A stretch of 33,817 nucleotides of DNA, taken from the IMG/VR virus record IMGVR_UViG_3300044301_004261, positions 1-33,817 of that record, one strand, 5' to 3'. Position numbers and translations under genes: made by a program. The DNA comes from a virus. A model generated the notes under the pieces. It saw nothing but the letters and a program-made list of their open reading frames with translations, was not told where the DNA came from and ran no database searches. How positions within the stretch are numbered: position 1 is the stretch's first letter; each line of letters begins with the position of its first letter. Shown here in pieces: positions 1,366 to 26,470 of the stretch.

Positions 1366-4300
1366 TTAATTTTTACCCGTCAACTTTTTCTTTGTCTTAT
1401 CGGACGCTTCTTCTTTTGCTTTGTACATGTCTGATCGAGCACTTTTTGCTCGTGAAATGTCTTTTAATTCTAGTCCCGTAGCTACCCTAATTGCTCGTTG
1501 CATTTGACCACGTAGACCCGCAGCCCTTTCAGGTCCAGTTCTTTCGGCCAACAACATAAAGTTATTTATTTCCTGTAGGCCACTATTCTCAAAAGCCATA
1601 CTCGGTATTCCAGGTGCTAAGTAGTAAACCTTACCTTCCTTAACCAAACTCAAGGGCTCCCGATCGTACTGACTTAAATCGGGTGCCTCATCACCTTCTG
1701 GTTCGACCAATGACCAAGGATCATCATTCTCATCTAATTCAAGGACCATGATGTTTAAGTACTCAGCCCAATGGACCACCGAAGCTGAGATTCGTTTAGG
1801 CATACCAGGTTTAGTCATACCTGCCGCTGCCATAGGATCTTTGAGCATCGGTGAGCGTGCCGGATTTACCAAAGCCTCAAACGGCACCAAAGGTGAAATA
1901 ATATCTGCACCATCGTCTTCATCCGTAAACCATTTATCTCCAAGCTTTTCTACCTCACCAGCTAAAAGTAGACCGAATGAGATCAAATGAGCAAAATGAT
2001 TATACGCAGCCATGTAGCTTGTTTCAGGTAGGAACAAAGCTGAATATGGTGCATCTGGATTTCTCATTCGATACAAATCCAACCACGTTTTCATATTGTC
2101 GCGAAACTCTTTTGGTATCTCAGGGTCACGCGCCACATCCTCATAATCGGGCGGGGTGTACGGCCATCGAACAGAGATTCTATTTCGCTGGTACGAAGCC
2201 ATTGAGGATCGATCTGTACGAGGAACATAATATGACGACAAAGCCCGAAGATCGATTGGTATCGGTTCACCCGTTTCAGGATCTTTTAGTTGGTCTGCAA
2301 TAGCCCGTAACTCATCGCTAAGTGGTGCTGTTGACGACAGCATTTGACCACCGTAAAAACCAACACTTGAATTCGCTACAAACATTCTCATTTCTTCGCG
2401 TAACATCGGAGACACGCGACCGTCAGGTGTCAGATTTTCATACACCTGATTTTTAAACGCAAAATAACTTTGCCTCAACTCAGGCGGCAAAGCATCAACG
2501 TCAATACCATTCTCATCCACAGAAGCGTTGTAAAGCAACTCACTAATCGCATCCGAACCCTTATCGTGTACCCGACGCATAACACCTAAACGGTAAGCGC
2601 CTTCGGGGCTGAATATCGTGTCGAACAACTGACGGTTCGTATTCTTCTGGAAAGCCCAAAACGGAAAAAACAAACCCACCAAGAAGTGCCGATCAGCTTT
2701 CGACATGCTGCCAGCGTAATCGTAAAGGGCATCTATTGTAATCCTTGCGGCTGTTCGAGGGTCAATACCAGCCTCCATCAAAGTCAGTGCCAACCCAATG
2801 CGTTCGCGCTCTGACCAAGCTTCCGCAAGATCTTCCGTGGCACCCTTAATGTTGTCTTTGACATACTTAAATGCGCGGCGAGGCATTCCCGCCTTTGCAG
2901 CCTCGTCTAAAAACAAATGCCCAACATTTTGAATCTTTGTTCCAAGTTGACTCGTATCAAACGAAGCAAAGATTCCTGCACCAAGAAAATGATCTCGAAC
3001 ATCTTGAGCCTTATATGGGCGACCACCAATAAGGATCATGGTATCTCCACCACGAAGAATATCATTTACGTTGATATGGTACTTAGATGCTCTCGTAAGC
3101 TTACTCATCCACTTTGCTGTAGCGTCACCACCAGCTTGTAGTGCACGTCGGACATCCTCTACTTTTTGTCCCTTACCCACCATTCGTGCTGCCGCGACAA
3201 CAGATTGGGCTTCTGGATTCATTATAAGGTTCTGTGGCAATAGGCGTAGTGCCTGTATCGTTGCGGTTCGATAATCAGTAGCAAGTGCCGTTTGGTTAAA
3301 CGTGTCGAACCAGTTCATCCAAAAATGTTTTGTCTTCGTTATGTAATGACCTCGAACCTGGCGCGTTTTCCAGACACGATAAAACAACGCCATTGACATC
3401 TTTTCTTTCTTACGTGGTCCCGCAGCACCTCGACGCATAATCTCTTCGGGCTCAGCACCGATATTCCAAAACTCTTCGAAAATATCACCGCGCTTTGCCT
3501 CACGTAATTCAGGGTCCATCGCCTGGTCCAGCGCCATTGATAACCGCTTTCGGCCTTGTTCTGGTACGTACATTTTCACGCCGTACAAATCAAAACTCTC
3601 AACCATATTGGGATTGTTACCCATAGCTTCGACGAAATTCTTAACTTCTGCTATCACATCATCCGATACATACTCACCAATAAGATACTTTTTGACGTTA
3701 GCCACAAGTTCTTCATCGGCAGCAATACCCATGTCGACCCATTCCATTTTGGCTTTATGAGCGTGGCCGTGAGCCGCAACCAAAACTGCAATACGATTCG
3801 GTACGTTAGGGTCTTCTTTAAACAACTGCGCAACTTCTTCGTACAACATTTGAAACGATGTTTCTGACCGGACCAAGATAGAATCTGCCGCCATTCTTTC
3901 CGTAAAAAACAAAGACGACCCTTGATACGGTCTACGTGTTCGATCCCCGAGGTACAGAAAAACCTCAAGCAATCCACCAGGGTCTTGGAGCCTCGTTGCA
4001 CCTGACCTCGATTGCGTAAAATACTTGGGTAACAAACGGTTGTTACTTCCTTCTTTAAAGCCAGCAGCCTGGAACGCCTCACGAAGAAACCTGTTTGCTT
4101 TTGCACCCTTTACAACTTCATTAAAGGCTTCCATCAACTCTTCTTGATCGTAAAAGAGTTTGTCCATTTCTCGTACAACTTGAGCCGTAGAACCTCGCTC
4201 ACGCACACGCATGACAAAGTCCTCCAAAATAAGCATTTGTCTGCGGCCTTTTTCTGTACTTGAAACCGCCTCAAAATAGCCTCGCAGACTATTCATCACA

Positions 4301-7300
4301 GTCTCTACCGAGTTGTGTCCAGCGCTTATCGCGGATCGACCACCCTGCTTAAACTGAATCTCAGCTTGACCTGTCAAGTAACGCATCAAATTATCTACAT
4401 CTTTTTCGTAGATAAGCGTGACCGTATCACCAACCGCTTGCTGTACTTTGCGTGCACCAGCCTGAATTGACTCGCGTACGATTAGGGGAAGACTCCGCAT
4501 ATCGACGTAAGCATCGGAGCCGAGAAAAAGACTTCTAAAAACAGACAGCTTACCGCGACCAAAAACAATTTGATCAATAAGTTCAGAGGCCGTCCTCTCA
4601 GTAATCGCCATGTGTGCGCCACCCAAAGCGATACGAGACGTATCAGACATTTCCAGATGCTTCGCGTGTTCCAACTCACCTTGGATTATCCTTAACTCGT
4701 CAAGCGTATAATCATCTTTAGGTGCCCTACCTGAAAACGATATAGGACCAGGTAACCGGATTATTGCCTGATCTAACTTACCTGCATTGTACGCCTCAAG
4801 AGCCTGCAACATTTGTTTATCAAGGTCTTTCTGACTCATAGGAAAACCTAAACGTTGAGTCATACGTAGGATTTCCTGGCCCACATCAATCTGAGAACCC
4901 TTTACCTTTGGTGTAAACAAGGCATCTTTTGTAATCTTATAGATATTAGGTAGTGCCACCTTTTCAGATGGTCGAGCCAGCATCTTATCCAAAACCTTTT
5001 TCAAGTCAGGGTTCATGTCTTCTGGCGGGCCACCAACGCTTCGGCCTGTCGCTGATGCGTACGTGTCCTTCAACCACTCAGAAGCCTTGTTTAAACCTCC
5101 CTTAATCTTTGGGCTGTCAGCTTTCCCTGATTTGACGTATGCCAGATAAGCTGAAGCAAACTCGTCCTCTGCCAACTTGATCACTTCAGGATCAGCACCC
5201 GTAAATACTGCACCGCTGAAACCAACTTTAATACCACGCCCACCTAACCAGGCAGTCAAAGCAGTCATGTCATTCTTACTAAGGTTTCGTCGAGACGCAG
5301 AACCCAAGGCGCGAATAAAATCATCTGCCGTAGCTGTATCTGTCAAAGCCTTTAGAAAAATTCGACCATCGTCTAAGCGTTCAATAACAACAGGGTTGGT
5401 AGCAACATCACCAGCCATGGAGTCGAATACCTTCGGAGTACCAATTGAAGGTGTTCTTGGCTTACGTTTACTGTGCTCAAGTGCAATTGCGTCTAAGTCA
5501 ACACGCTTTAAATCTTCCGCATCGATAATAAGTTTTGTGCCAATATCACCATTAGGTAAAGTGACGCCTTGACGACGAAACTTAATACCGTATCGCTCAA
5601 GCGAATCGTAAACTCGAAGCGCTTCTGGACTTGGGTTTACGTCACTTGCAAAACGCATGTCACTCTTTTTTGCTTCTGAAAGAGCCCTTAAATATAATTC
5701 AACACCTAAACCTTGATTTCTTAATTCAGGAGGTAAATCAATATTAACGACACGAAGTTCGTTAATTACAGGTCCACCTTCTCTTTCGATAAAAAACTCA
5801 GACTCAACTTTAATCTTAGGTCCATCAGGACCATCACCCCTTCGACCAAGATCTATGTGGGCGTAATCTGGGTCAAGTGGGGATGTACTTTGAGGGTTAG
5901 AACGCTCAAACGAAGTCTGATTTAAATCAATTATTTCCGGCTCGGCGGGAGTTTCTTTCGGTGCTACTGTTGGGGTTTTCTGGTCAGGCTTTATGTCCTC
6001 GAAAACTTTTGATAGGCGAAAGTTTTCCTCATAGTACTTACGTATCGTACTATTGTTTTTCTTTGCCCACTTAGCTGCTTTCCGATCTTCGATCATGACA
6101 ACACGAAGGGCTTCATCACCACGAAGATTAGGTACAGCCAATTCGAGTTGACGCAAAAAACTTAATCCATCAGGGGATAAACCTGCTTCACCAACAGCTT
6201 TGTGTTTTTCTGTGATGGGTACAATAAGTGGATCAGCCTTTACACCTGCCTGGTCAGCAATATTTTTGCGCACAAAAGCCATCGCTGCTGCACGAGACTC
6301 GAGTTGACCTTCAACAGCTTTTACTGCACGTGCTGTAGCATTCCGTGCATCCTCAGGGGATACCTTTACTTTGAGGTTCTTTTTAAGTTTCTTTACGTTT
6401 TTGATTGTCGGTTTGACAAGTTTCGACAATTCACTCAGAAACTTTTGTTGTACCGCAGGATTGTCTTCAGGAAACGGAAGCTTCAATGCAAGTTCAGTTA
6501 CTCGACGATGCCAAGCAGCGGGGTCGTCTTTCAAGAGTCGGGTAGATTCATACCGACGCAAGAAATCAACAAGGTCACCTGATGCCTGTCTCTGTGCTAC
6601 GGTCAACCCTGTTTGTTGAGTTGATAAACCAGAATCAATCATCAAATTCGTAAGCTTAGATGAGAAATTATTTGCCTCATCTACATACGCAATCAAAAAT
6701 TGCTCGTCGATGTCACCCTTTTTAAGTAATCGAATCGTGTCTTGAAGAGACTCAATCGCGAGATTCGTACCTAAAATTTCATAAAAGGGTGCAAGCTGAT
6801 CATCTGCTGGACCACGCAAGTCAACTCGACGAATACTCGGATGAAGGTTTTGAGCCGTCGCACCAAAGGCACCGGGAATTTGTGAAGCTAATCTCCTACC
6901 TTCTTTAAAACCCATTTCAGGTACTTCGTCTGTAAGGCGGCTAGATATTACAGTATCAAGCCTGTCTACCTCAGTAGCCATTACCTTGTTGTCTTCCCGA
7001 ACAGCCGCGATCAATTCATCGCCCTTAGAAGCATACTCTTTAGCCTGCTCAAGCAAGTCCAAAGCCTTGTCATAGTCTCCAGCCGCAAGCGCGTCAGAAA
7101 CGCCATCCATGATAATTTCTTGTGCTTTGGCCAGTGATTCGGCGCCCTCCCCCAAATTATCGACGAGCCTCGGAGCAAGAGTTTTAAAGGCACGTACAGA
7201 TTTTGCCTGTTCAGCAACCTTCTTTGAAACACGAGCCACCCCAGCAAGGCCCATAAATAAATCGGGGGTACCAACAGCAGCACCAAAACCCAACGAACCT

Positions 7301-8610
7301 GCGGCGACAGCACCCAGGGTTGAGTTCTCTGCCGCCTCGGTAGACATCCCCGCCTTCAAAAAGTCTCGTTTGTTTCGTAGTCCCTCCAGGGAGCCCTCTT
7401 TGATGGCTTCCATGATAGACTCATCTTCTGGCCCGTAAGCAAGCCGCTCACCTACACCAACGACCATTGACTGTGGGGCATCAGCCATTTCAAACATGTG
7501 CCAAACTGGGTGGGTCAATCGATATACAGGTGTGCCTTTTGCATCTAGACCAACAACCTCCATACGAACGTTAGACCAACCGTCCCACGCTTTTTCAATC
7601 CATAGAGTATCTTTGTCTGATGCTGGGTCACCAAGCTGCAATGCAGGGTCGATCATGTCATACGAAATGAACATCGGAAAGACATGCTTGTTCGTCGCAC
7701 GAAGTAACGTGGTTTCGTACAAGGCGTTCTGCCATGCACGTTTCTTTAGCGCCTCATACTCGGGCGACCCACGTTTTGCCCCCTCTTCTCGGGCCAATGT
7801 ATTTAAGTCATACGCATACAACTTACCGAGCATTTCTTGAAAATGTTTCTCCGCAATCCCCTCACGAACCATAGAACCCATAGATCGTGGACCTGCGTAG
7901 GTAACCATGTCGAGTAGCATTTGAGCCCGCTCTGGGTCATTAGCAATCTTAGGGTCCGTAATCTTTTGCGCAAAACGCTCAAGGCGGTCGTACCCAGGGT
8001 CGCCAGGTTTAACGACAGCATCCTCGGCCTCACCAGAAGCTGTACCACCAAAACCAAAAATCTTAGGTTTACGTTTTTTCGGATCAAACGTTGACGCAAG
8101 CTGGTCTAGTGTCTCTTCTTTTGTTTTTGGATCAAGTTTCTTTTCACCTGTTTGGGTTCGACGAAAACCTTCCAAGAGAATGTTTTGACCTCTTTGCTTT
8201 ACTCGTCGCTGCTGCGGGGTCAGCCCCGCAACGTCTCGATGATGTTGAAAGGAATCAATCACCTCATTGATCGGCTCACCTTGTTGGGTGATGCGTTCAA
8301 ACATTTGGTTTAGTGGTATTCCCTGCAACTCAAATGCCGACACAGTCTCTTGTGGCGTCAGGCCGGTAAGACCTTCTGTGGTTTGCAGTACCGTTTCTAA
8401 ATCCGCAATCGGCTCACCACGAGATATTTTTTTCTTTGCTAGATCAGCATTAATCGCCATCTGAGATTCGCGCTCAGCAGCAAAAGCCAGTCCAATTGCT
8501 TTTAGATTTAGATCCCTATTTAGTTTCTCATCGAGTTTCGGTAGGTCTTCTGTGACAGTGCCAAAGGGCTTTTCTTCCTCTGGTGTTTCTACCTCTTGTT
8601 GTTCTGCCAC
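1366..8610 (-). CDS. Giant virion protein (2414 aa), probable ejection protein with embedded GNAT domain
   Basis: The gene starts with GTG at 8610, with AGGGA about 7 bases upstream and two bases after the previous stop. The N-terminus is acidic and charged. Around residues 430-460 is a Gly/Ala-rich hydrophobic stretch (GAVAAGSLGFGAAVG) that could insert in a membrane. Residues about 925-1050 resemble a GNAT N-acetyltransferase: strand ELRVVNIDL, the acetyl-CoA-binding R-x-x-G-x-G motif as RNQGLG near 964-968, then NPSPEALRVYDSLERYGIKF. Near residue 1970 AARITIDALYDYAG followed by LFFPFWAFQKNTN recalls the A..D..F...PF pattern in C-terminal parts of large phage 'polyvalent' virion proteins (LPD38-like, from memory). 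It follows the 246- and 953-aa genes as T7 gene 16 follows 14 and 15, suggesting an internal protein ejected with the DNA. I saw no lysozyme, transglycosylase or RNA polymerase motif. GNAT call fairly sure; ejection role inferred. Confidence 0.65.
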   Translation of the reverse strand: MAEQQEVETPEEEKPFGTVTEDLPKLDEKLNRDLNLKAIGLAFAAERESQMAINADLAKKKISRGEPIADLETVLQTTEGLTGLTPQETVSAFELQGIPLNQMFERITQQGEPINEVIDSFQHHRDVAGLTPQQRRVKQRGQNILLEGFRRTQTGEKKLDPKTKEETLDQLASTFDPKKRKPKIFGFGGTASGEAEDAVVKPGDPGYDRLERFAQKITDPKIANDPERAQMLLDMVTYAGPRSMGSMVREGIAEKHFQEMLGKLYAYDLNTLAREEGAKRGSPEYEALKKRAWQNALYETTLLRATNKHVFPMFISYDMIDPALQLGDPASDKDTLWIEKAWDGWSNVRMEVVGLDAKGTPVYRLTHPVWHMFEMADAPQSMVVGVGERLAYGPEDESIMEAIKEGSLEGLRNKRDFLKAGMSTEAAENSTLGAVAAGSLGFGAAVGTPDLFMGLAGVARVSKKVAEQAKSVRAFKTLAPRLVDNLGEGAESLAKAQEIIMDGVSDALAAGDYDKALDLLEQAKEYASKGDELIAAVREDNKVMATEVDRLDTVISSRLTDEVPEMGFKEGRRLASQIPGAFGATAQNLHPSIRRVDLRGPADDQLAPFYEILGTNLAIESLQDTIRLLKKGDIDEQFLIAYVDEANNFSSKLTNLMIDSGLSTQQTGLTVAQRQASGDLVDFLRRYESTRLLKDDPAAWHRRVTELALKLPFPEDNPAVQQKFLSELSKLVKPTIKNVKKLKKNLKVKVSPEDARNATARAVKAVEGQLESRAAAMAFVRKNIADQAGVKADPLIVPITEKHKAVGEAGLSPDGLSFLRQLELAVPNLRGDEALRVVMIEDRKAAKWAKKNNSTIRKYYEENFRLSKVFEDIKPDQKTPTVAPKETPAEPEIIDLNQTSFERSNPQSTSPLDPDYAHIDLGRRGDGPDGPKIKVESEFFIEREGGPVINELRVVNIDLPPELRNQGLGVELYLRALSEAKKSDMRFASDVNPSPEALRVYDSLERYGIKFRRQGVTLPNGDIGTKLIIDAEDLKRVDLDAIALEHSKRKPRTPSIGTPKVFDSMAGDVATNPVVIERLDDGRIFLKALTDTATADDFIRALGSASRRNLSKNDMTALTAWLGGRGIKVGFSGAVFTGADPEVIKLAEDEFASAYLAYVKSGKADSPKIKGGLNKASEWLKDTYASATGRSVGGPPEDMNPDLKKVLDKMLARPSEKVALPNIYKITKDALFTPKVKGSQIDVGQEILRMTQRLGFPMSQKDLDKQMLQALEAYNAGKLDQAIIRLPGPISFSGRAPKDDYTLDELRIIQGELEHAKHLEMSDTSRIALGGAHMAITERTASELIDQIVFGRGKLSVFRSLFLGSDAYVDMRSLPLIVRESIQAGARKVQQAVGDTVTLIYEKDVDNLMRYLTGQAEIQFKQGGRSAISAGHNSVETVMNSLRGYFEAVSSTEKGRRQMLILEDFVMRVRERGSTAQVVREMDKLFYDQEELMEAFNEVVKGAKANRFLREAFQAAGFKEGSNNRLLPKYFTQSRSGATRLQDPGGLLEVFLYLGDRTRRPYQGSSLFFTERMAADSILVRSETSFQMLYEEVAQLFKEDPNVPNRIAVLVAAHGHAHKAKMEWVDMGIAADEELVANVKKYLIGEYVSDDVIAEVKNFVEAMGNNPNMVESFDLYGVKMYVPEQGRKRLSMALDQAMDPELREAKRGDIFEEFWNIGAEPEEIMRRGAAGPRKKEKMSMALFYRVWKTRQVRGHYITKTKHFWMNWFDTFNQTALATDYRTATIQALRLLPQNLIMNPEAQSVVAAARMVGKGQKVEDVRRALQAGGDATAKWMSKLTRASKYHINVNDILRGGDTMILIGGRPYKAQDVRDHFLGAGIFASFDTSQLGTKIQNVGHLFLDEAAKAGMPRRAFKYVKDNIKGATEDLAEAWSERERIGLALTLMEAGIDPRTAARITIDALYDYAGSMSKADRHFLVGLFFPFWAFQKNTNRQLFDTIFSPEGAYRLGVMRRVHDKGSDAISELLYNASVDENGIDVDALPPELRQSYFAFKNQVYENLTPDGRVSPMLREEMRMFVANSSVGFYGGQMLSSTAPLSDELRAIADQLKDPETGEPIPIDLRALSSYYVPRTDRSSMASYQRNRISVRWPYTPPDYEDVARDPEIPKEFRDNMKTWLDLYRMRNPDAPYSALFLPETSYMAAYNHFAHLISFGLLLAGEVEKLGDKWFTDEDDGADIISPLVPFEALVNPARSPMLKDPMAAAGMTKPGMPKRISASVVHWAEYLNIMVLELDENDDPWSLVEPEGDEAPDLSQYDREPLSLVKEGKVYYLAPGIPSMAFENSGLQEINNFMLLAERTGPERAAGLRGQMQRAIRVATGLELKDISRAKSARSDMYKAKEEASDKTKKKLTGKN
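5460..5835 (-). other. GNAT acetyltransferase-like domain inside the giant protein
   Basis: Roughly residues 925-1050 of the 2414-aa protein. The order of a beta strand (ELRVVNIDLPPE), the RNQGLG pyrophosphate-binding loop, a helix (VELYLRALSEAKK), a strand (MRFASDVNPSPEA), a helix (LRVYDSLERYG) and a final strand (IKFRRQG) matches the GNAT core from strand 4 to strand 6. It is preceded by a Pro/Thr/Glu-rich linker (about residues 880-915), as expected for an inserted domain. The substrate is unknown. Confidence 0.6.
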
Positions 8611-20331: not shown

Positions 20332-22233
20332 TTAATCATCTAGTGGGAGCGAACCAAATGTACCATATCGAGTGCGCCCACGGTAGCCTGTAAATGGTAC
20401 AGGTTCTACAACACCACCAGTATTCGCATATCTCTCTCGATACAACTTTACCAATTCCTGGTAACGATCTAAGTGTGCTTGGGCGCTTGCCTGGTCGTTA
20501 CCATCATGAAGACTCACGTAATACAATGCCAGTTCGATCAAAGAAGAAACAGCATCACGCTGTATCGGTGCTGTATCTTGATCATCGATAAACTTCTTCG
20601 GTAAACGCAGCACACGTAGATCCAACTCATACAGATCATTCTGATGCGGATAACACTTAAAGGCATAGTACCCGGTACTATGTTTTAGTGGTCGATGATA
20701 GTCGTATTGTTGACTACCGTTCCAAAAAATTACCGCCCCACCGTTAGATTGGAATATGCTCTTAGCCTCGGAATTATTCGTAATTGAATATGGTATGGAA
20801 ACACCGGAGCCCGCATAGATTCTGGAATCGTATATATATTGGTTGTATGTTGGTTCTACCTCACACAAAAGATAAAATCTTTCGTTAGTCTCGATTGGAA
20901 ACGCACCTGCATCACGAACGGGTTTATTCTCTTCCAAGACAGCGACGTAATAACGAATTCGTAAACCACTTTTCTTGTAACGAACATAGGTATCGTCCGA
21001 AAAACCTAAAATACCGTCAACGTTAGGTGCGGCAATCATTATATTCCCGACAAACGAATTATCTGCACCACGGTTGTCGATGATACTCACAGGTGATGGG
21101 GCGCTTTCCCACTGAGGATCTGGTATACCGGAATAATGAAGCTGTTCTGCGTCAGTCGTAGATCCCATAGGATCAAGATTTGGATCAGCATAAGACCATA
21201 GCAAATCGTCGTTTTGTGGCGAACCGTCAATTTCTCGCGCCCCACCAAACTCCATTAAGTCCTCATAGCCTGTACTCACACTATTAAAGCCTGGAGCAAC
21301 GCCGGGGGCTTTTTGTCGTTCAAAATCTCTTCGACCCCAAACATATGTGTAACAAATAGCAAACCGGCCCCGAGGAAGACCTGATGCCCCCATGCTTTTA
21401 GTTAACCAATTATATTCCTTTGGGAACGACCCCTTATCGCCAGGATCACCCATAACGTTGTGGAGAAATGGTGCCTCCGTTGGGGCCTGCATTTGAAAAT
21501 GCCTACCACGCCAAAAACGGTAGGGTCGCCCCGTTGAAGTACCCTTATAGTCATGCATATCTTGACGACTCGCGCCCGCAGTATCAATTTTCCAAACCTG
21601 TTGACGCGACTCGTCATAAATGACCGCAGGCTCTAAAACTTCCATCACGTCGTCACTGACAAAAAACTCAGGCTGAAAAATACGAAAGTCATAGATACAT
21701 CGTTTTTGTCCGTCCATCGGTGAAGATACCGGTCTATCCAATGTACAGTAGTAATGAAGCTTCCTAACTTGTACGTCATCCACCATAACGATTTCATGTT
21801 TGCAGAAAAACTCAACGCATTGACGACGCTGAACATGGTTAGTTACTATATTCGTTAATTCAATATGCATGATGCCATCATGCTCACGAGTAACGATAGG
21901 TCTCCAGGTAGTTAAGCTGTCCGAGAATGCAATTGGTGTATCTTTCTCTTTACAGAAAAATTCGATAACCCTTGTATCAACGGTATTATCGTCATCCATC
22001 TTACCATTAGCAACTTTGGCCCTTGCCGCCACAGTTGAATTAGTGCTTACAGTGTCGGGGTTGAGAAAAATATGTTCTTCGTCTGGAACAAGTGCCTCAG
22101 GAACCTCACCTGCAAGCCTATCAAGCGCAATATTTAACGTTTTACGTATGCGATCATCTTGGGTCTTACCTGTCGAATCCCACGAACGTAAAGCCAATAA
22201 CGTTTCTCTAAGCGACTTAAGTGAAGTATCCAA
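20332..22233 (-). CDS. Head-tail adaptor-like protein, 633 aa
   Basis: The start is TTG at 22233; an in-frame TAG lies five codons upstream, so no other start is possible. GGAG sits about 6 bases before it. The N-terminus is helical (SLKSLRETLLALRSWDSTGK, then DDRIRKTLNIALDRLAGEVP). The C-terminus returns to helices: DAVSSLIELALYYVSLHDGN near residue 561, then AQAHLDRYQELVKLYRERY. Between them is a long beta-rich region (about residues 85-530). Helical ends that pack together around an inserted beta region are what I would expect of T7 gp11 / P22 gp4-type adaptors that sit under the portal. It is the first large gene after capsid and decoration genes, which fits. It is much longer than T7 gp11 (196 aa), so the insertion probably forms extra tail structure. 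Adaptor assignment is inference. Confidence 0.45.
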   Translation of the reverse strand: MDTSLKSLRETLLALRSWDSTGKTQDDRIRKTLNIALDRLAGEVPEALVPDEEHIFLNPDTVSTNSTVAARAKVANGKMDDDNTVDTRVIEFFCKEKDTPIAFSDSLTTWRPIVTREHDGIMHIELTNIVTNHVQRRQCVEFFCKHEIVMVDDVQVRKLHYYCTLDRPVSSPMDGQKRCIYDFRIFQPEFFVSDDVMEVLEPAVIYDESRQQVWKIDTAGASRQDMHDYKGTSTGRPYRFWRGRHFQMQAPTEAPFLHNVMGDPGDKGSFPKEYNWLTKSMGASGLPRGRFAICYTYVWGRRDFERQKAPGVAPGFNSVSTGYEDLMEFGGAREIDGSPQNDDLLWSYADPNLDPMGSTTDAEQLHYSGIPDPQWESAPSPVSIIDNRGADNSFVGNIMIAAPNVDGILGFSDDTYVRYKKSGLRIRYYVAVLEENKPVRDAGAFPIETNERFYLLCEVEPTYNQYIYDSRIYAGSGVSIPYSITNNSEAKSIFQSNGGAVIFWNGSQQYDYHRPLKHSTGYYAFKCYPHQNDLYELDLRVLRLPKKFIDDQDTAPIQRDAVSSLIELALYYVSLHDGNDQASAQAHLDRYQELVKLYRERYANTGGVVEPVPFTGYRGRTRYGTFGSLPLDD

Positions 22234-22237
22234 ACCA

Positions 22238-22275
22238 ACTCCAAGCTACAAAAGGAGTGTAGCTTAAAACTACAC
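22238..22275 (-). promoter_or_regulatory. Leader with mutually exclusive hairpins before the TTG start
   Basis: On the minus-strand RNA, GTGTAG (22275-22270) pairs with CTACAC (22262-22257). Alternatively AAGCTAC (22265-22259) pairs with GTAGCTT (22249-22243) in a perfect 7-bp stem with a 9-base loop. The loop contains ACTCC (22258-22254), the exact complement of the SD-containing GGAGT (22242-22238). The first two stems overlap and exclude each other, and an ACTCC:GGAGT pairing would hide the SD. The layout looks like a translational switch or attenuator for the adaptor-like gene. Confidence 0.4.
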
Positions 22276-22279
22276 CACA

Positions 22280-22293
22280 TAAGTGTATCACGT
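22280..22293 (-). repeat. 14-base intergenic motif, copy 2
   Basis: Minus strand ACGTGATACACTTA, 9 bases after the stop of the 186-aa decoration-like gene and just before the leader hairpins of the adaptor-like gene. It is identical to the copy at 22924-22937. Confidence 0.6.
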
Positions 22294-22302
22294 AACCAAA
22301 AG

Positions 22303-22863
22303 CTATGGCAGACGAAGCAAGACGTGAGCGTAGTTAGTCACTGTTTTGTCTTTGTCCTCAAGAGCAATACCGATTTGATTTTGAGGTGCTGTGTCGGTCG
22401 CCACATTACCTGTAGTACCATCAGCAGAAAGAGCATCACCATCTGAACAAGATGCAGCAGCCACAAAGCAGACACCCTGCTTTATGATCCAACCATACTT
22501 ACCATCACCAATGTCATGGTCAGAAATACCGGCCAACTGCATCGGATGATGATCGTTTACAGTGTTTCCTTTGACATGAAATGGTAGGGCTTTACCGGTA
22601 ATTGCCGCACCATCTGCATCAGTTGCTAACGTCGTATAATCATACGCCAAAAGATGACCTTTGGTTACATCGCCCACCGCTTTAACAAAGATCCAAGTAC
22701 GGTTTCCCTTACCTAACCAAGTGCTTGCAGTAACGTCAGAACTAACCCCGGTAAGATTAGATTCAACTTCTTCAGATGGTTCAATATAAACCGTACCAAG
22801 AGCATAGACTTCATCATCATAAACGCTTGATAGTGGATCAGTTTTAGTCGCTAGCAAAGACAT
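22303..22863 (-). CDS. Putative head decoration protein, 186 aa (paralogue B)
   Basis: The frame is open to 22941, but that stretch contains a terminator hairpin. ATG 22863 (MSLLATKTDPLSSVYDDEVY) has AGGA 8 bases upstream and is chosen. The protein is beta-rich and Gly/Asp-rich. It aligns by eye with the 184-aa product encoded just upstream: YALGTVYIE with YPVGTIRVE, GNRTWIFVKA with GDRTWLFVKA, GISDHDI...YGWIIKQGVCFV with GIAQNAI...YGWVVIRGQCVV, and SADGTTGNVATD with DTNGSSGDDGQCD. Position directly after the major capsid gene and the small beta-rich build suggest a shell-stabilising or decoration protein. The equivalent Cys in both copies (QGVCF, RGQCV) may be structural. Tail-side roles cannot be excluded. 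Confidence 0.55.
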   Translation of the reverse strand: MSLLATKTDPLSSVYDDEVYALGTVYIEPSEEVESNLTGVSSDVTASTWLGKGNRTWIFVKAVGDVTKGHLLAYDYTTLATDADGAAITGKALPFHVKGNTVNDHHPMQLAGISDHDIGDGKYGWIIKQGVCFVAAASCSDGDALSADGTTGNVATDTAPQNQIGIALEDKDKTVTNYAHVLLRLP

Positions 22864-22891
22864 GATAATTCCTGTAATAAAAACTGTTATG

Positions 22892-22924
22892 AAAAGGGGG
22901 CGTAACCCGAAAGCCACGCCCCCT
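22892..22924 (-). terminator. Intrinsic terminator between the decoration paralogues
   Basis: The minus strand has AGGGGGCGT (22924-22916), a 12-base loop and ACGCCCCCT (22903-22895), a perfect 9-bp GC-rich stem, followed by a run of T (TTTTC, including 22895-22892). It lies 28 bases before the ATG of the 186-aa gene. It should reduce read-through from the capsid and first decoration gene into the tail genes. Confidence 0.65.
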
Positions 22925-22937
22925 AAGTGTATCACGT
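22924..22937 (-). repeat. 14-base intergenic motif, copy 1
   Basis: Minus strand ACGTGATACACTTA, 10 bases after the stop of the 184-aa gene and directly joined to the terminator stem. It is identical to 22280-22293. GTGATACACTTAGG faintly resembles phage RNA-polymerase promoters of the SP6 class (GTGACACTATAG), and TGATACACT can be read as an extended -10; neither reading is proven. Confidence 0.6.
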
Positions 22938-22947
22938 TCAATGTGAT

Positions 22948-23502
22948 TTACCTAATGCCCCATACATAAGCAGCCACTGTGCTTGCCACAGGAGTTCCCG
23001 TACCTGTGAGCGCTGTTGCAATGATCTCTCCAACCGTAGTCGAGTCATCGCACTGACCATCATCCCCAGAACTACCATTCGTATCGAGGTACTGACCAGC
23101 AGTAATGCCATCAGCACCCTTAACAACACACTGACCACGAATTACAACCCAACCATAGCTGTTGAGCGCAATAGCGTTTTGTGCGATGCCCCGGATGGTG
23201 TAGTCCTTGGCAGCGTCATCAGGCGTAGGCTTAACCACGAGTGGTGTGGCAATTGCGTTGTTGACAACACAATCATAAGCCTCAACCGCAACACCAGCCT
23301 TTACAAAGAGCCATGTTCGGTCTCCCTGCAAGCCCAATGAGGTGCCATCAGTATGCTCAGCAGCCGCAACCTCGTCAGCAGACTCCACTCGGATAGTTCC
23401 GACTGGGTACTGCTCTGTGGTATACGTTTGGCTAAATGAGCTTTTTGCATCTTCTCCATCGACGACGTTTCCGCCTCCGGTAAATTGATTTCCATATGCC
23501 AT
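22948..23502 (-). CDS. Putative head decoration protein, 184 aa (paralogue A)
   Basis: ATG 23502 has a near-perfect SD, AAGGAGGT, seven bases upstream, overlapping the capsid gene's TAA stop (TAAGGAGG). This implies strong translation coupled to the capsid gene. The protein is 184 aa, beta-rich and contains YPVGTIRVE, GDRTWLFVKAG, a central YGWVVIRGQCVVKGADGI and a Gly/Ser/Asp-rich loop (DTNGSSGDDGQ). It is clearly related to the 186-aa product of the next gene. High expression, tight coupling to the major capsid protein and small size suggest a capsid decoration or stabilising protein. Family name not certain. Confidence 0.6.
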   Translation of the reverse strand: MAYGNQFTGGGNVVDGEDAKSSFSQTYTTEQYPVGTIRVESADEVAAAEHTDGTSLGLQGDRTWLFVKAGVAVEAYDCVVNNAIATPLVVKPTPDDAAKDYTIRGIAQNAIALNSYGWVVIRGQCVVKGADGITAGQYLDTNGSSGDDGQCDDSTTVGEIIATALTGTGTPVASTVAAYVWGIR

Positions 23503-23513
23503 AATATACCTCC

Positions 23514-24590
23514 TTACAGGATCGTTTCACCGCCACCAGCAGCACAACCCTGAGCAGCCAATTTGGTGCAGATCATGTTGCCTTGCATGGCGAAGATAGC
23601 TGTTACGACATCTTGATCACCAACACGCTCCTTGAATTCCGAGATATTCGGGGCTTCAAGCATTGCAAACTCAAAGAAGTCTGTGTTGAGCATGTAAGTA
23701 ACACCAAGCGCAGGTCCATCAGAACCAAATGCTGTGGTGTCAGTACGATCAAGATCGATCGATGAATGAATTTCTGCCAACCCAATACTTAGGGCCAGAG
23801 AGTTTGTCTTGTCTGTCTTGTCTTGGTAGACATTGACACGAATGTTGTCACCACGAGTAAGTGACTCGTAGTTTGAATACGTATCATCATCCATCAAAAC
23901 CATGTCTGGTCCCTTACCGACACCACCCGAATAATGCGAGCACTTACGATAAAGTCGACGAAGCTTACCAATACCACCATCCGACATCGGCCCTGTAAGT
24001 GCTTCATACTGGTTTGCGTGGAAGTAACTAGCACTCTTCTTCACATTTTGAACTACGTCGCTTTGTGTTGCAAACGTTTGGAAGTCAAGAAGACCGTTAG
24101 TTACACCGGTTCCGATACCCGTTGAGTGGTTACCGTTAAGCGTAAGCATACCCAGCAATTCAGAAGTGTTGAACGCAAGACCACGACTCACACCCGTAAG
24201 CAGGAACTTGTTCAGGTCTGCCTTAGCAGCTTCCATAGCAGTTTGCGGATATTCTTCGATAAGACGAACAACAGCCAGCTTTCCACTGTTCTGGTTCAAT
24301 TCCTTCTTAGGAATGTTAATCGCCATAACCATACGATGAGGCTCAACCTCAAACTTACGGATTTGTTGACGACGGGTCATGTTCAACAGTTCGTCACCGA
24401 CGTAGACACCAACACCGCGAGCAGGAGCGCCACCAGAGAAGGAACGTTCAATCTTCGTTCCGCCTTCCATGGGCATACGTGCTTTCGAGTTAAGTGCTTC
24501 GAACAGTTCGTTGCTGCGAACAAATGAGTTTACTAGGGGTCCACGGAGATCCGCGAACGTAGTATTCAGCAATTCAGTACTGATAGACAT
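23514..24590 (-). CDS. Major capsid protein, HK97-fold-like, 358 aa
   Basis: ATG 24590 follows AAGTGAGAAC, a weak SD. The N-terminus MSISTELLNTTFADLRGPLV is helical. A basic region MTRRQQIRKFEVEPHRMVMA near residue 70 resembles the strand-rich E-loop/P-domain of coat proteins. Helical KADLNKFLLTGVSRGLAF follows, then aromatic MVLMDDDTYSNYESLTRGDN and the C-terminal GVTYMLNTDFFEFAMLEA, then DQDVVTAIFAMQGNMICTKL. The pattern 'x-L-N-T-x-F-F-x-F' plus 'G-N-x-I-C/T' near the end is typical of P22- or HK97-type coat proteins of about 340-430 aa. It is the first leftward gene, next to decoration genes, and is read from the divergent control region. No protease or N-terminal delta domain is evident, which fits a separate scaffold protein (encoded on the other strand). 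Confidence 0.75.
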   Translation of the reverse strand: MSISTELLNTTFADLRGPLVNSFVRSNELFEALNSKARMPMEGGTKIERSFSGGAPARGVGVYVGDELLNMTRRQQIRKFEVEPHRMVMAINIPKKELNQNSGKLAVVRLIEEYPQTAMEAAKADLNKFLLTGVSRGLAFNTSELLGMLTLNGNHSTGIGTGVTNGLLDFQTFATQSDVVQNVKKSASYFHANQYEALTGPMSDGGIGKLRRLYRKCSHYSGGVGKGPDMVLMDDDTYSNYESLTRGDNIRVNVYQDKTDKTNSLALSIGLAEIHSSIDLDRTDTTAFGSDGPALGVTYMLNTDFFEFAMLEAPNISEFKERVGDQDVVTAIFAMQGNMICTKLAAQGCAAGGGETIL

Positions 24591-24694
24591 TTTGTTCTCA
24601 CTTGAAATAAAATATTAAAAAAACACTTCGCCTGCCCGCGATGCAAAAACTGGACCCAAAGGGCTACCCAACACATCTAAATGGGTGCTCTTTC

Positions 24695-24723
24695 TGTATA
24701 CAACACAAAATAAAACGCTGCAA
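24695..24723 (-). promoter_or_regulatory. Candidate sigma70-like promoter for the capsid operon
   Basis: Minus strand TTGCAG (24723-24718), a 17-base spacer and TATACA (24700-24695), about 105 bases before the capsid ATG. The hexamers match consensus at 3 and 4 of 6 positions, with ideal spacing. Moderate match only. Confidence 0.35.
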
Positions 24724-24743
24724 GGCAGATATTTATATTACCA

Positions 24744-24775
24744 ACCAAAAATATTTGTAACTACCCAAAATATTT
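24744..24775. repeat. Near-direct repeat, possible operator
   Basis: ACCAAAAATATTT (24744-24756) and ACCCAAAATATTT (24763-24775) differ at one position, with a 19-base period, close to two helical turns. They sit just upstream of the terminase start in the divergent region and could bind a regulator cooperatively. Confidence 0.4.
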
Positions 24776-24799
24776 TCGCACCTACATGATCATGATACT

Positions 24800-26470
24800 A
24801 TGACCACTATGGCAACAAACACAGCAAGAAAACAAAAAAAGCGTGACACAAGTAACGCAGGCGCAGATTTCGCAACCGCACCAGGAATACATGACGGAAA
24901 AGTTAGAGCACTTTTCTCTACCCCTGATGCTTTTGTGTCTATGTGTCACATTGTCCGAGAAGATGAATCAACAGGATTCATGGAGCCAACTCACACACAA
25001 AAGAAACTATTAAAAGCATACGATGAAAACCGATGGCTGATGGTAAACAAATTCCGTCAGGCAAAGATTACAACCGTGTCCGTCATGTTGCTACTGCGAG
25101 ACTGTATGTATCTCAGCGGCGTCAAGGGTTTGCTTATTGCAGAGCGTCAAGACACGGCAGAAGATATCTTTGAGAGGATACTGTTCGCATACAACAGGCT
25201 CCCTGCCGATGTAAAAATGCCGCTTGCGCCAGGACGAAAAGCAGGCGCTACACAAATGCAGTTCATACACGGCGGGGGAATTAAGGTGCTCACCGCTGGT
25301 GGACGAAGCCCTGCTATCGGGCGATCCATTGATAGGCTGGTAATTACAGAGTTTGGTGAAGCACAGTGGCAACGCAAGGCTGCGATTAATATCTTTCCAA
25401 CTGTAAACAAACGGCCCAACGCAAAAGTTATCCTCGAGTCTACGCCAGGTCGTGCTGGATCACACCACGAACAAATGTGGCGCTCAGCGTTGGAAGGAAC
25501 AAGTCGGTTTCATCCGTTGTTTCTCGAGTGGTGGGAAGACGAAAGTTGCCAAGAAAAAGATGAGTCTTTTGAACCAAGCGCCAGTGAGTTGGAATACTTA
25601 GATCGCCATGATGGCATGAGTAAATTCAATCTCGCCTTTAGACGACGTGGACTAAATACGGAGTTTGTTGGAGACACAAGACTATTTTCCTGCAAATACC
25701 CGTCAGACGAATACGATGGGTGGCTTGGAAGTACAAACCCCGTCATGCCCGCAGAGATTCTAAAGCCTCTGCTAGACCAAGCAGAAAAAGATCCCATACT
25801 TGGACCGTACGCTTGTCATGAGTTTGAGCCACCAAAACCTGGACACAAATATGTAATCACTGCTGACCCCGCAGGATTCGGTAGCACAGGCGATAAATCA
25901 GCACTGACTGTTTGGGATGCGCATGAGTGGCGCGAAATCGCTTTTTGGGAAGACAGAGAAACGCCCGATCGATTCGCGCAAAGACTTCGTATTGTTCAGA
26001 AACGATACCTTGGCGCCCTGCTTGCTGTTGAATCAAACGCCACCGCATGTATCGCAATCTTAAAAGATCAAGATACGCGAAACCTATTGTGGACGGACAG
26101 AAACCACCCTGGTTGGTACGCCACACAGAAACGTATTCAAGAATCCGAAGCACGACTAGTACGTATGCTGCGGGAAAAAGAACTAAATATTCGTAGTCGT
26201 GGTATGTTACACCAGCTACTCAACTATGACGGCACACGAAAGAAGCGTGTGCGCGGAGAAGATGGAACGGTTCACCACTTTGACCGAGCAAGGACTGCCG
26301 TTATGGCAGCAGACATTCTTGCTCGCAGACATTTTACTCAAGAGACATCTGCTGTAGAATCGGATTACATTCCAGGACAGATTACAATCAAACAACTCGA
26401 TCGAGTTAAGTCGAAAAAACTTCAATCAGCAAAAACAGTTTTTAAACCCGCATCACAGATATGGAAATAA
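24800..26470 (+). CDS. terL: Terminase large subunit (packaging ATPase-nuclease), 556 aa
   Basis: Motor that pumps DNA through the portal and cuts it. The ATPase domain has FRQAKITT at residues 84-91 in the place of the Walker A / RQ-x-G-K-S/T loop, LVITEFGEA at 178-185 as Walker B plus catalytic acid, and VILESTPGRAGSHH near 211 as the coupling motif (S/T-x-P/S-T-P type). The nuclease domain has VITADPAGFGSTGDKSALTV near 352 (first Asp), LLAVESNATACIAIL near 410 (Glu) and FDRARTAVMAADILARRH near 494 (last acidic cluster), the usual RNase-H-like three-acid layout. Length is typical. Starts at ATG 24800 or at ATG 24809; neither has a clear SD, so the start is uncertain. No terminase small subunit was recognised nearby. 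It leads the rightward operon and the next gene follows one base after its stop. Confidence 0.88.
   Translation: MTTMATNTARKQKKRDTSNAGADFATAPGIHDGKVRALFSTPDAFVSMCHIVREDESTGFMEPTHTQKKLLKAYDENRWLMVNKFRQAKITTVSVMLLLRDCMYLSGVKGLLIAERQDTAEDIFERILFAYNRLPADVKMPLAPGRKAGATQMQFIHGGGIKVLTAGGRSPAIGRSIDRLVITEFGEAQWQRKAAINIFPTVNKRPNAKVILESTPGRAGSHHEQMWRSALEGTSRFHPLFLEWWEDESCQEKDESFEPSASELEYLDRHDGMSKFNLAFRRRGLNTEFVGDTRLFSCKYPSDEYDGWLGSTNPVMPAEILKPLLDQAEKDPILGPYACHEFEPPKPGHKYVITADPAGFGSTGDKSALTVWDAHEWREIAFWEDRETPDRFAQRLRIVQKRYLGALLAVESNATACIAILKDQDTRNLLWTDRNHPGWYATQKRIQESEARLVRMLREKELNIRSRGMLHQLLNYDGTRKKRVRGEDGTVHHFDRARTAVMAADILARRHFTQETSAVESDYIPGQITIKQLDRVKSKKLQSAKTVFKPASQIWK

Follow-up and report, generated by a model that had tools for sequence, protein, structure and literature searches.

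The site at positions 22238-22275 (minus strand) of the window, the whole 33,817-nt stretch analysed here (positions 1-33,817 of IMG/VR virus record IMGVR_UViG_3300044301_004261), lies between the second decoration gene and a 633-aa adaptor gene, and by comparison of sequences it represents an eroded version of a hairpin that many related phages share. This conserved hairpin probably sets the amount of tail protein relative to that of shell protein, and the idea, put forward earlier from the sequence alone, that the site could set the adaptor against the capsid level was judged right. As for how it would do so, we lean towards an attenuating terminator; its 5' arm would overlap the beginning of a promoter that serves the adaptor and tail genes. 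A doubtful hairpin of a single genome is hence replaced by a conserved control point in a group of phages that are uncultured and for which the searches gave no close isolate.

The features of the region are collected in Table 1. PHROGs and the curated Pfam cut-offs gave no name for the 633-aa gene, and Foldseek alone returned no PDB match for its model at E <= 0.001. The label "adaptor" holds nevertheless, as had been proposed, because the predicted fold (mean pLDDT 67.6) matches podophage portal-tail chains, with Z values from 15.2 to 7.9 over the best 16 rows, all of which were phage tail or portal complexes. The structural match spanned residues 1-612 with some 185 of them aligned, which in this model suggests a large insertion; the matching chains have ~180-240 residues, versus 633 aa in the window. 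When a phage collection was searched, the DNA of 20332-24590 gave no distant match and the adaptor protein no match, while the capsid protein gave one remote match. The structural gene row ends with a 2414-aa ORF (1366-8610, minus strand) that had no PHROG match and no Pfam match over the cut-off, and the L014 contig carries a 2592-aa ORF near the corresponding end.

Table 1. Positions of the genes, motifs and pairings of the region in the window.
Feature	Position	Strand	Basis or remark
Head-tail adaptor gene, 633 aa, TTG start	20332..22233	-	predicted fold, leader comparison
H3, ACTCC 22258-22254 / GGAGT 22242-22238, covers the Shine-Dalgarno sequence (SD)	22238..22258	-	part of the window's predicted dominant fold
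SD, GGAG	22239..22242	-	corresponds to GGAGG of relatives
H2, 8-bp perfect stem AAGCTACA/TGTAGCTT	22265-22258 with 22250-22243	-	only in the window and the L002/L007/L087 contig
H1 hairpin, degenerate copy-2 version of the leader hairpin, two outer-stem mismatches	22252..22280	-	occupies the columns of the covarying helix
Predicted +1, 7th base after the hexamer, first base of the GTGTAG arm	22275..22275	-	usual distance from -10 to +1
Motif GTGATACACTT, copy 2, extended -10-like (TG 22290-22289, hexamer TACACT 22287-22282)	22281..22291	-	exact copy of the relatives' motif
Decoration/cement gene 2, 186 aa, PF09956, flanked by both element copies	22303..22863	-	
Strong copy-1 hairpin AGGGGGCGTGGC..GTTACGCCCCCT, then TTTC	22895..22924	-	stretch 22855-22945: z -5.2, 0/200 shuffles
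Motif GTGATACACTT, copy 1	22925..22935	-	
Decoration gene 1, 184 aa, 28% identical to its paralogue, gene 2	22948..23502	-	
Major capsid gene	23514..24590	-	phrog_9953

Conservation and duplication of the leader hairpin

Relatives were gathered with the adaptor and capsid proteins as queries, which gave 4, 60 and 80 (of 111) loci, and one further relative was a contig of a Flavobacteriaceae MAG. The usual order of their adaptor leaders was GTGATACACTT or a near variant, followed by a GC-rich hairpin and a U-rich stretch, then by GGAGG and the start codon, GTG or ATG. The pair GTGTAG 22275-22270 / CTACAC 22262-22257 (H1) turned out to be the core of this longer hairpin conserved before the adaptor gene. 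Its 12-pair helix was formed in 95.4% of cells (31 distinct rows), and five pairs underwent compensatory change, with 18 cells altered on both sides. Neither this number nor the covariation score was reached by any of 500 shuffles, and pairing fell to 44-69% when the partner was slid along the alignment; the rows L005 and L019 are shifted by one and were counted partly as broken. The outermost pair also covaries (A-U 20, G-C 8 and U-A 1 of 30), and the stems covary at the RNA level, G-U pairs included. Distant leaders, such as L148, L117, L145 and L151, have quite different stems at the same place. Across the family, the GC-rich hairpin is kept by selection; copy 2 of the window is itself weak. 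The leader element is nearly always single per genome. The hairpin was also considered as coding sequence, since by eye some genomes have an open frame across it; this was rejected, because indels after the hairpin put the reading frames of relatives out of register and because of the covarying stem. Following the hairpin, the tails contained on average 5.1 T of 8, compared with 2.95 T of 9 upstream of a set of 105 other SDs, and in the commonest leader type the U tract is interrupted (UCGUCUUU).

Two copies of the motif-hairpin block are present in the window, copy 1 (22935-22895) preceding decoration gene 2 and copy 2 forming the studied site, and the nearest relative (L002/L007 contig) has both as well. 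The copy-2 hairpin was evaluated at -9.2 kcal/mol, whereas the nearest relative has -16.7 and the others have roughly -20 to -29; the outer stem of copy 2 is broken by two substitutions (22279 and 22277). Copy 2 would hence represent a decaying hairpin behind an intact motif. Since decoration genes 1 and 2 are paralogous, a decoration gene and the block seem to have been jointly duplicated or acquired, so that the element would have been doubled along with that gene. The decoration protein between the capsid and the element is highly variable among relatives, and it is doubled in the window and L007. A swap of non-homologous decoration genes was ruled out, as all 35 compared proteins between capsid and element belong to one family, despite the little DNA shared there by the window and L002.

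A structured RNA leader also lies before the capsid gene (24630-24687, minus strand) and is conserved in 35 loci (alignment A3). Two stacked helices were 100% paired over 34 distinct rows with 36 double-changed cells, a number reached in 0/500 shuffles, while two other measures of the covariation test were no higher than in the shuffles. A long-range CCY/RGG pair fits 33/33 distinct sequences, most of which also accommodate a middle helix (GAUGU/GCAUC or UGCG/CGCA). An Rfam search of 22000-25000 gave no match, with one row far below the gathering score. This leader is perhaps a new cis-regulatory RNA of capsid synthesis.

The promoter-like motif and a proposed mechanism

An extended -10-like motif, CRTGATAYANT, directly precedes the hairpin in 56 of the 74 distinct leaders, which were searched with the pattern [AG]TG[AC]TA[CT][ACT]NT. 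The hexamer was TACACT in 37 leaders, TACATT in 12, TACAAT, TATAGT and TATACT in 2 each, and TATCTT in 1, and the stem starts 1-3 nt past its last T in 55/56 leaders. Over 52 distinct segments, C-17, TG, A-13, T-12, A-11 and T-7 were invariant or nearly so; TG, T-12, A-11 and T-7 belonged to the search pattern, which itself explains part of the invariance of the hexamer's T, A and T. The C before RTG lies outside that pattern and was invariant in 52/52. The arrangement TG-N-TANNNT, with T-12, A-11 and T-7 fixed and the centre variable, is that of an extended -10 element, though partly set by the search. No -35 element was recognised, as TTGACA was matched at at least 4 bases in 6% of the 52 segments versus 12% of shuffles. 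The 18 leaders that failed the pattern come from distant relatives (several of L124-L143, L147 and L150) and represent another conserved leader type before the adaptor, which ends in AGGAGGCGGGCATG, often with GGTAGCAACC and a small hairpin.

The terminase start displays a similar motif, TG-N-TANNNT located 5-7 nt before ATG in 33/34 distinct contexts, in which hexamer bases 3-5 vary. From this spacing the terminase genes look leaderless, the motif serving as the extended -10 of a leaderless gene; examples lie upstream of the capsid in L014 (minus strand) and around 24800 of the window. The pattern resembles that of lambda PRM. These copies bear on an alternative in which the motif is a phage operator, that is, a regulator-binding site, or in which the conserved block is a recombination linker serving the exchange of variable decoration genes. 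The conservation of C-17 and A-13 equals that of the promoter bases, which exceeds the demand of a plain extended -10, so that another protein may read the motif; in addition, the decoration proteins, placed between the conserved capsid and the element, are strongly variable, and the element was duplicated along with a decoration gene. The variable bases 3-5 in the terminase copies are however those expected of a -10 and not of an operator, and the stems covary at the RNA level with G-U pairs; we consider this alternative improbable.

A single-subunit RNA polymerase (PF00940) was not found in 5/5 records of 65-74 kb, for which the T7 and N4 controls were positive, and a TTGCA-N17-TAWACM promoter was recognised by eye before the capsid gene. 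These two observations are in favour of a host-type transcription machinery. A T7-like phage promoter (the motif ends in CACTTAGGGGG) was rejected, because the motif occurs at 17 places in 12 records, nearly all of them the element or the terminase start, and because of the same absence of PF00940.

In the reading we lean towards, the motif would act as an extended -10 promoter, and the adaptor/tail transcript would begin inside the 5' arm of the hairpin. Read-through RNA from the capsid promoter would form the whole hairpin and be partially terminated, as at Tphi of T7, while RNA born at the motif would lack the outer arm, its 5' terminus carrying no more than a short hairpin. This missing outer arm is proposed to let the motif-born RNA escape termination. 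When transcripts started 7 nt after the hexamer were modelled, the first base was paired in 54/54, a result partly built in by the assumed start within the 5' arm. The same models place a hairpin at the 5' terminus in all 54, which also suits a role chiefly in mRNA stability or processing, where a 5'-terminal stem-loop or an RNase III-type site would protect or cut the late mRNA and the motif would only place its 5' end. The fixed distance from motif to stem and the imperfect U tract fit such a role, but the tails are U-rich and the outermost pair covaries even though a transcript from the predicted start would be without it; we regard it as unlikely. The covariation of the outermost pairs calls for the read-through RNA, itself a postulated species of the attenuating terminator.

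A more specific version of this attenuator, which we regard as less likely than not, is a two-in-one element, in which the 5' arm of the terminator is also the first transcribed stretch of the promoter, so that only the capsid-side RNA would be stopped and the site-born RNA would escape with a short protective hairpin. If true, capsid transcription would end and tail transcription would start within a single spot of ~40 bases, which would also set the ratio of the two. An overlap working as proposed would be a compact means to insulate and rebalance adjacent operons. The conserved element as such yields exact, testable predictions of start and stop positions.

Pairings over the Shine-Dalgarno sequence

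Three complementary pairs had been noticed at 22238-22275 in the sequence-only reading, and all were found at the bases it gave: H1, H2 (AAGCTAC 22265-22259 / GTAGCTT 22249-22243, which one extra pair extends to a perfect 8 bp) and H3. CTAC is used by both H1 and H2, which makes them mutually exclusive as claimed. The TTG start was confirmed, as the ORF begins with TTG at 22233-22231 behind GGAG at 22242-22239, and no alternative start is available because an in-frame TAG (22248-22246) precedes any other upstream start. The adaptor start codons of 54 leaders were GTG (34), ATG (18) and TTG (2), and the TTG start may itself lower translation. A perfect stem of 8 bp was reached in 7/1000 dinucleotide shuffles of the 72-nt leader and was present in 17/938 72-nt tiles of the record, and the fold energy of the leader was mildly unusual (z -1.9 with 8/200 shuffles; z -1.7 with 63/1000 shuffles). 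A stable H2+H3 pseudoknot was set aside on the earlier argument that its loops would be of zero length.

Exclusive pairings with one of them over the SD are the layout of a translational switch, in which H1 would free the SD and H2/H3 would hide it, limiting adaptor synthesis. Conservation and co-variation of the arms had been suggested as a check of this layout. H1 is the only one of the three helices with covariation, while the arms of H2/H3 occur in one other IMG/VR contig only (L002/L007/L087), and those of H3 are not conserved outside the window and L002. The tile 22276-22217 is identical at 60/60 bases between the window and L002; covariation is hence unavailable for H2/H3, whose arms are identical in only two genomes.

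The window leader was folded from seven assumed 5' ends. The pair probability of H3 was 0.69-0.96 for five of them and 0.54-0.59 for the two shortest RNAs, with an unpaired probability of 0-0.16 for the SD bases. H1 reached 0.26-0.30 when the 5' end was 22280, 22276 or 22275, and was at 0.01 in the two longest RNAs. The predicted competition in the window is between H1 and a longer hairpin that includes H3. H2, the most striking stem, was barely populated (0-0.04 for five of the seven 5' ends, 0.25-0.36 for the two shortest RNAs), which counts against a switch, and the 3' side of the longer fold extends into codons of a conserved protein. For L002, which shares the 60 bases, a long RNA gave H1 at 0.98-0.99 with a freer SD, while an RNA from the predicted +1 gave H3 at 0.98. 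On these models a bistable leader is possible, start-dependent in L002, and if so the same RNA of the window lineage would fold differently over the SD depending on its start. The cost of opening the SD was 4.7 kcal/mol in the window and was equalled or exceeded by 3/33 relatives (range 0.9-8.0); from the assumed promoter 5' end it was 6.2, about 5th of 54 (others 0.5-7.1). The burial of the SD is hence inside the range of relatives without these arms.

Taken chiefly as a translational SD switch, the site is unsupported, since covariation resides in H1 only and the neighbouring features point to transcription. We rate a switch as quite improbable, a possible reading that the present comparison does not support. 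With the attenuating terminator, the SD-covering pairings would be an addition in the window lineage that may lower translation.

Comparison with known systems

The exclusive hairpins, one over the SD, are shared with SD-sequestering translational switches in general, from which the site differs in that its arms are conserved in two genomes only. We know of no ligand or inducer for the SD-covering arms of the window. A second comparison is with SAS/ESAS of Cluster K mycobacteriophages, which likewise are conserved inverted repeats placed shortly before the SD and start codon of phage genes (PMC3203893). According to that source, departures from the ESAS generally give no support for RNA pairing, and the sites precede many non-structural genes (PMC3203893). 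In contrast, pairing is supported here and the element is rarely repeated in a genome, and the 13-bp SAS/ESAS GGGATAGGAGCCC was not seen by eye at the SD of the adaptor leaders compared. The motif shares TG, N, TANNNT and variable central hexamer bases with sigma70 extended -10 (TGn/-10) promoters, such as galP1 and lambda Pre (PMC2613000), and differs from them in being without a -35 and in the extra conserved C-17 and A-13. No description of the motif-hairpin element was recognised in the literature searched, and publication elsewhere is still possible.

The closest arrangement is that of T7, in which the annotated terminator Tphi lies 18 bases before gene 11 and the sequence reads hairpin, T run, SD and ATG. 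There, the stop of gene 10 (capsid) is followed by hairpin, T run, SD and the start of gene 11 (tail tubular A, the adaptor), and the window and its relatives have the same order of capsid/decoration, hairpin, SD and adaptor. By this analogy, the element likely performs the same task as Tphi, namely the production of less adaptor than capsid. T7 however relies on a polymerase of its own, and the T7 annotation examined has no promoter overlapping Tphi, whereas here a promoter-like motif lies against the stem and the T run is weaker. The element is thus of a known general kind, a capsid/tail attenuator, real and conserved, with a promoter-like motif fused on.
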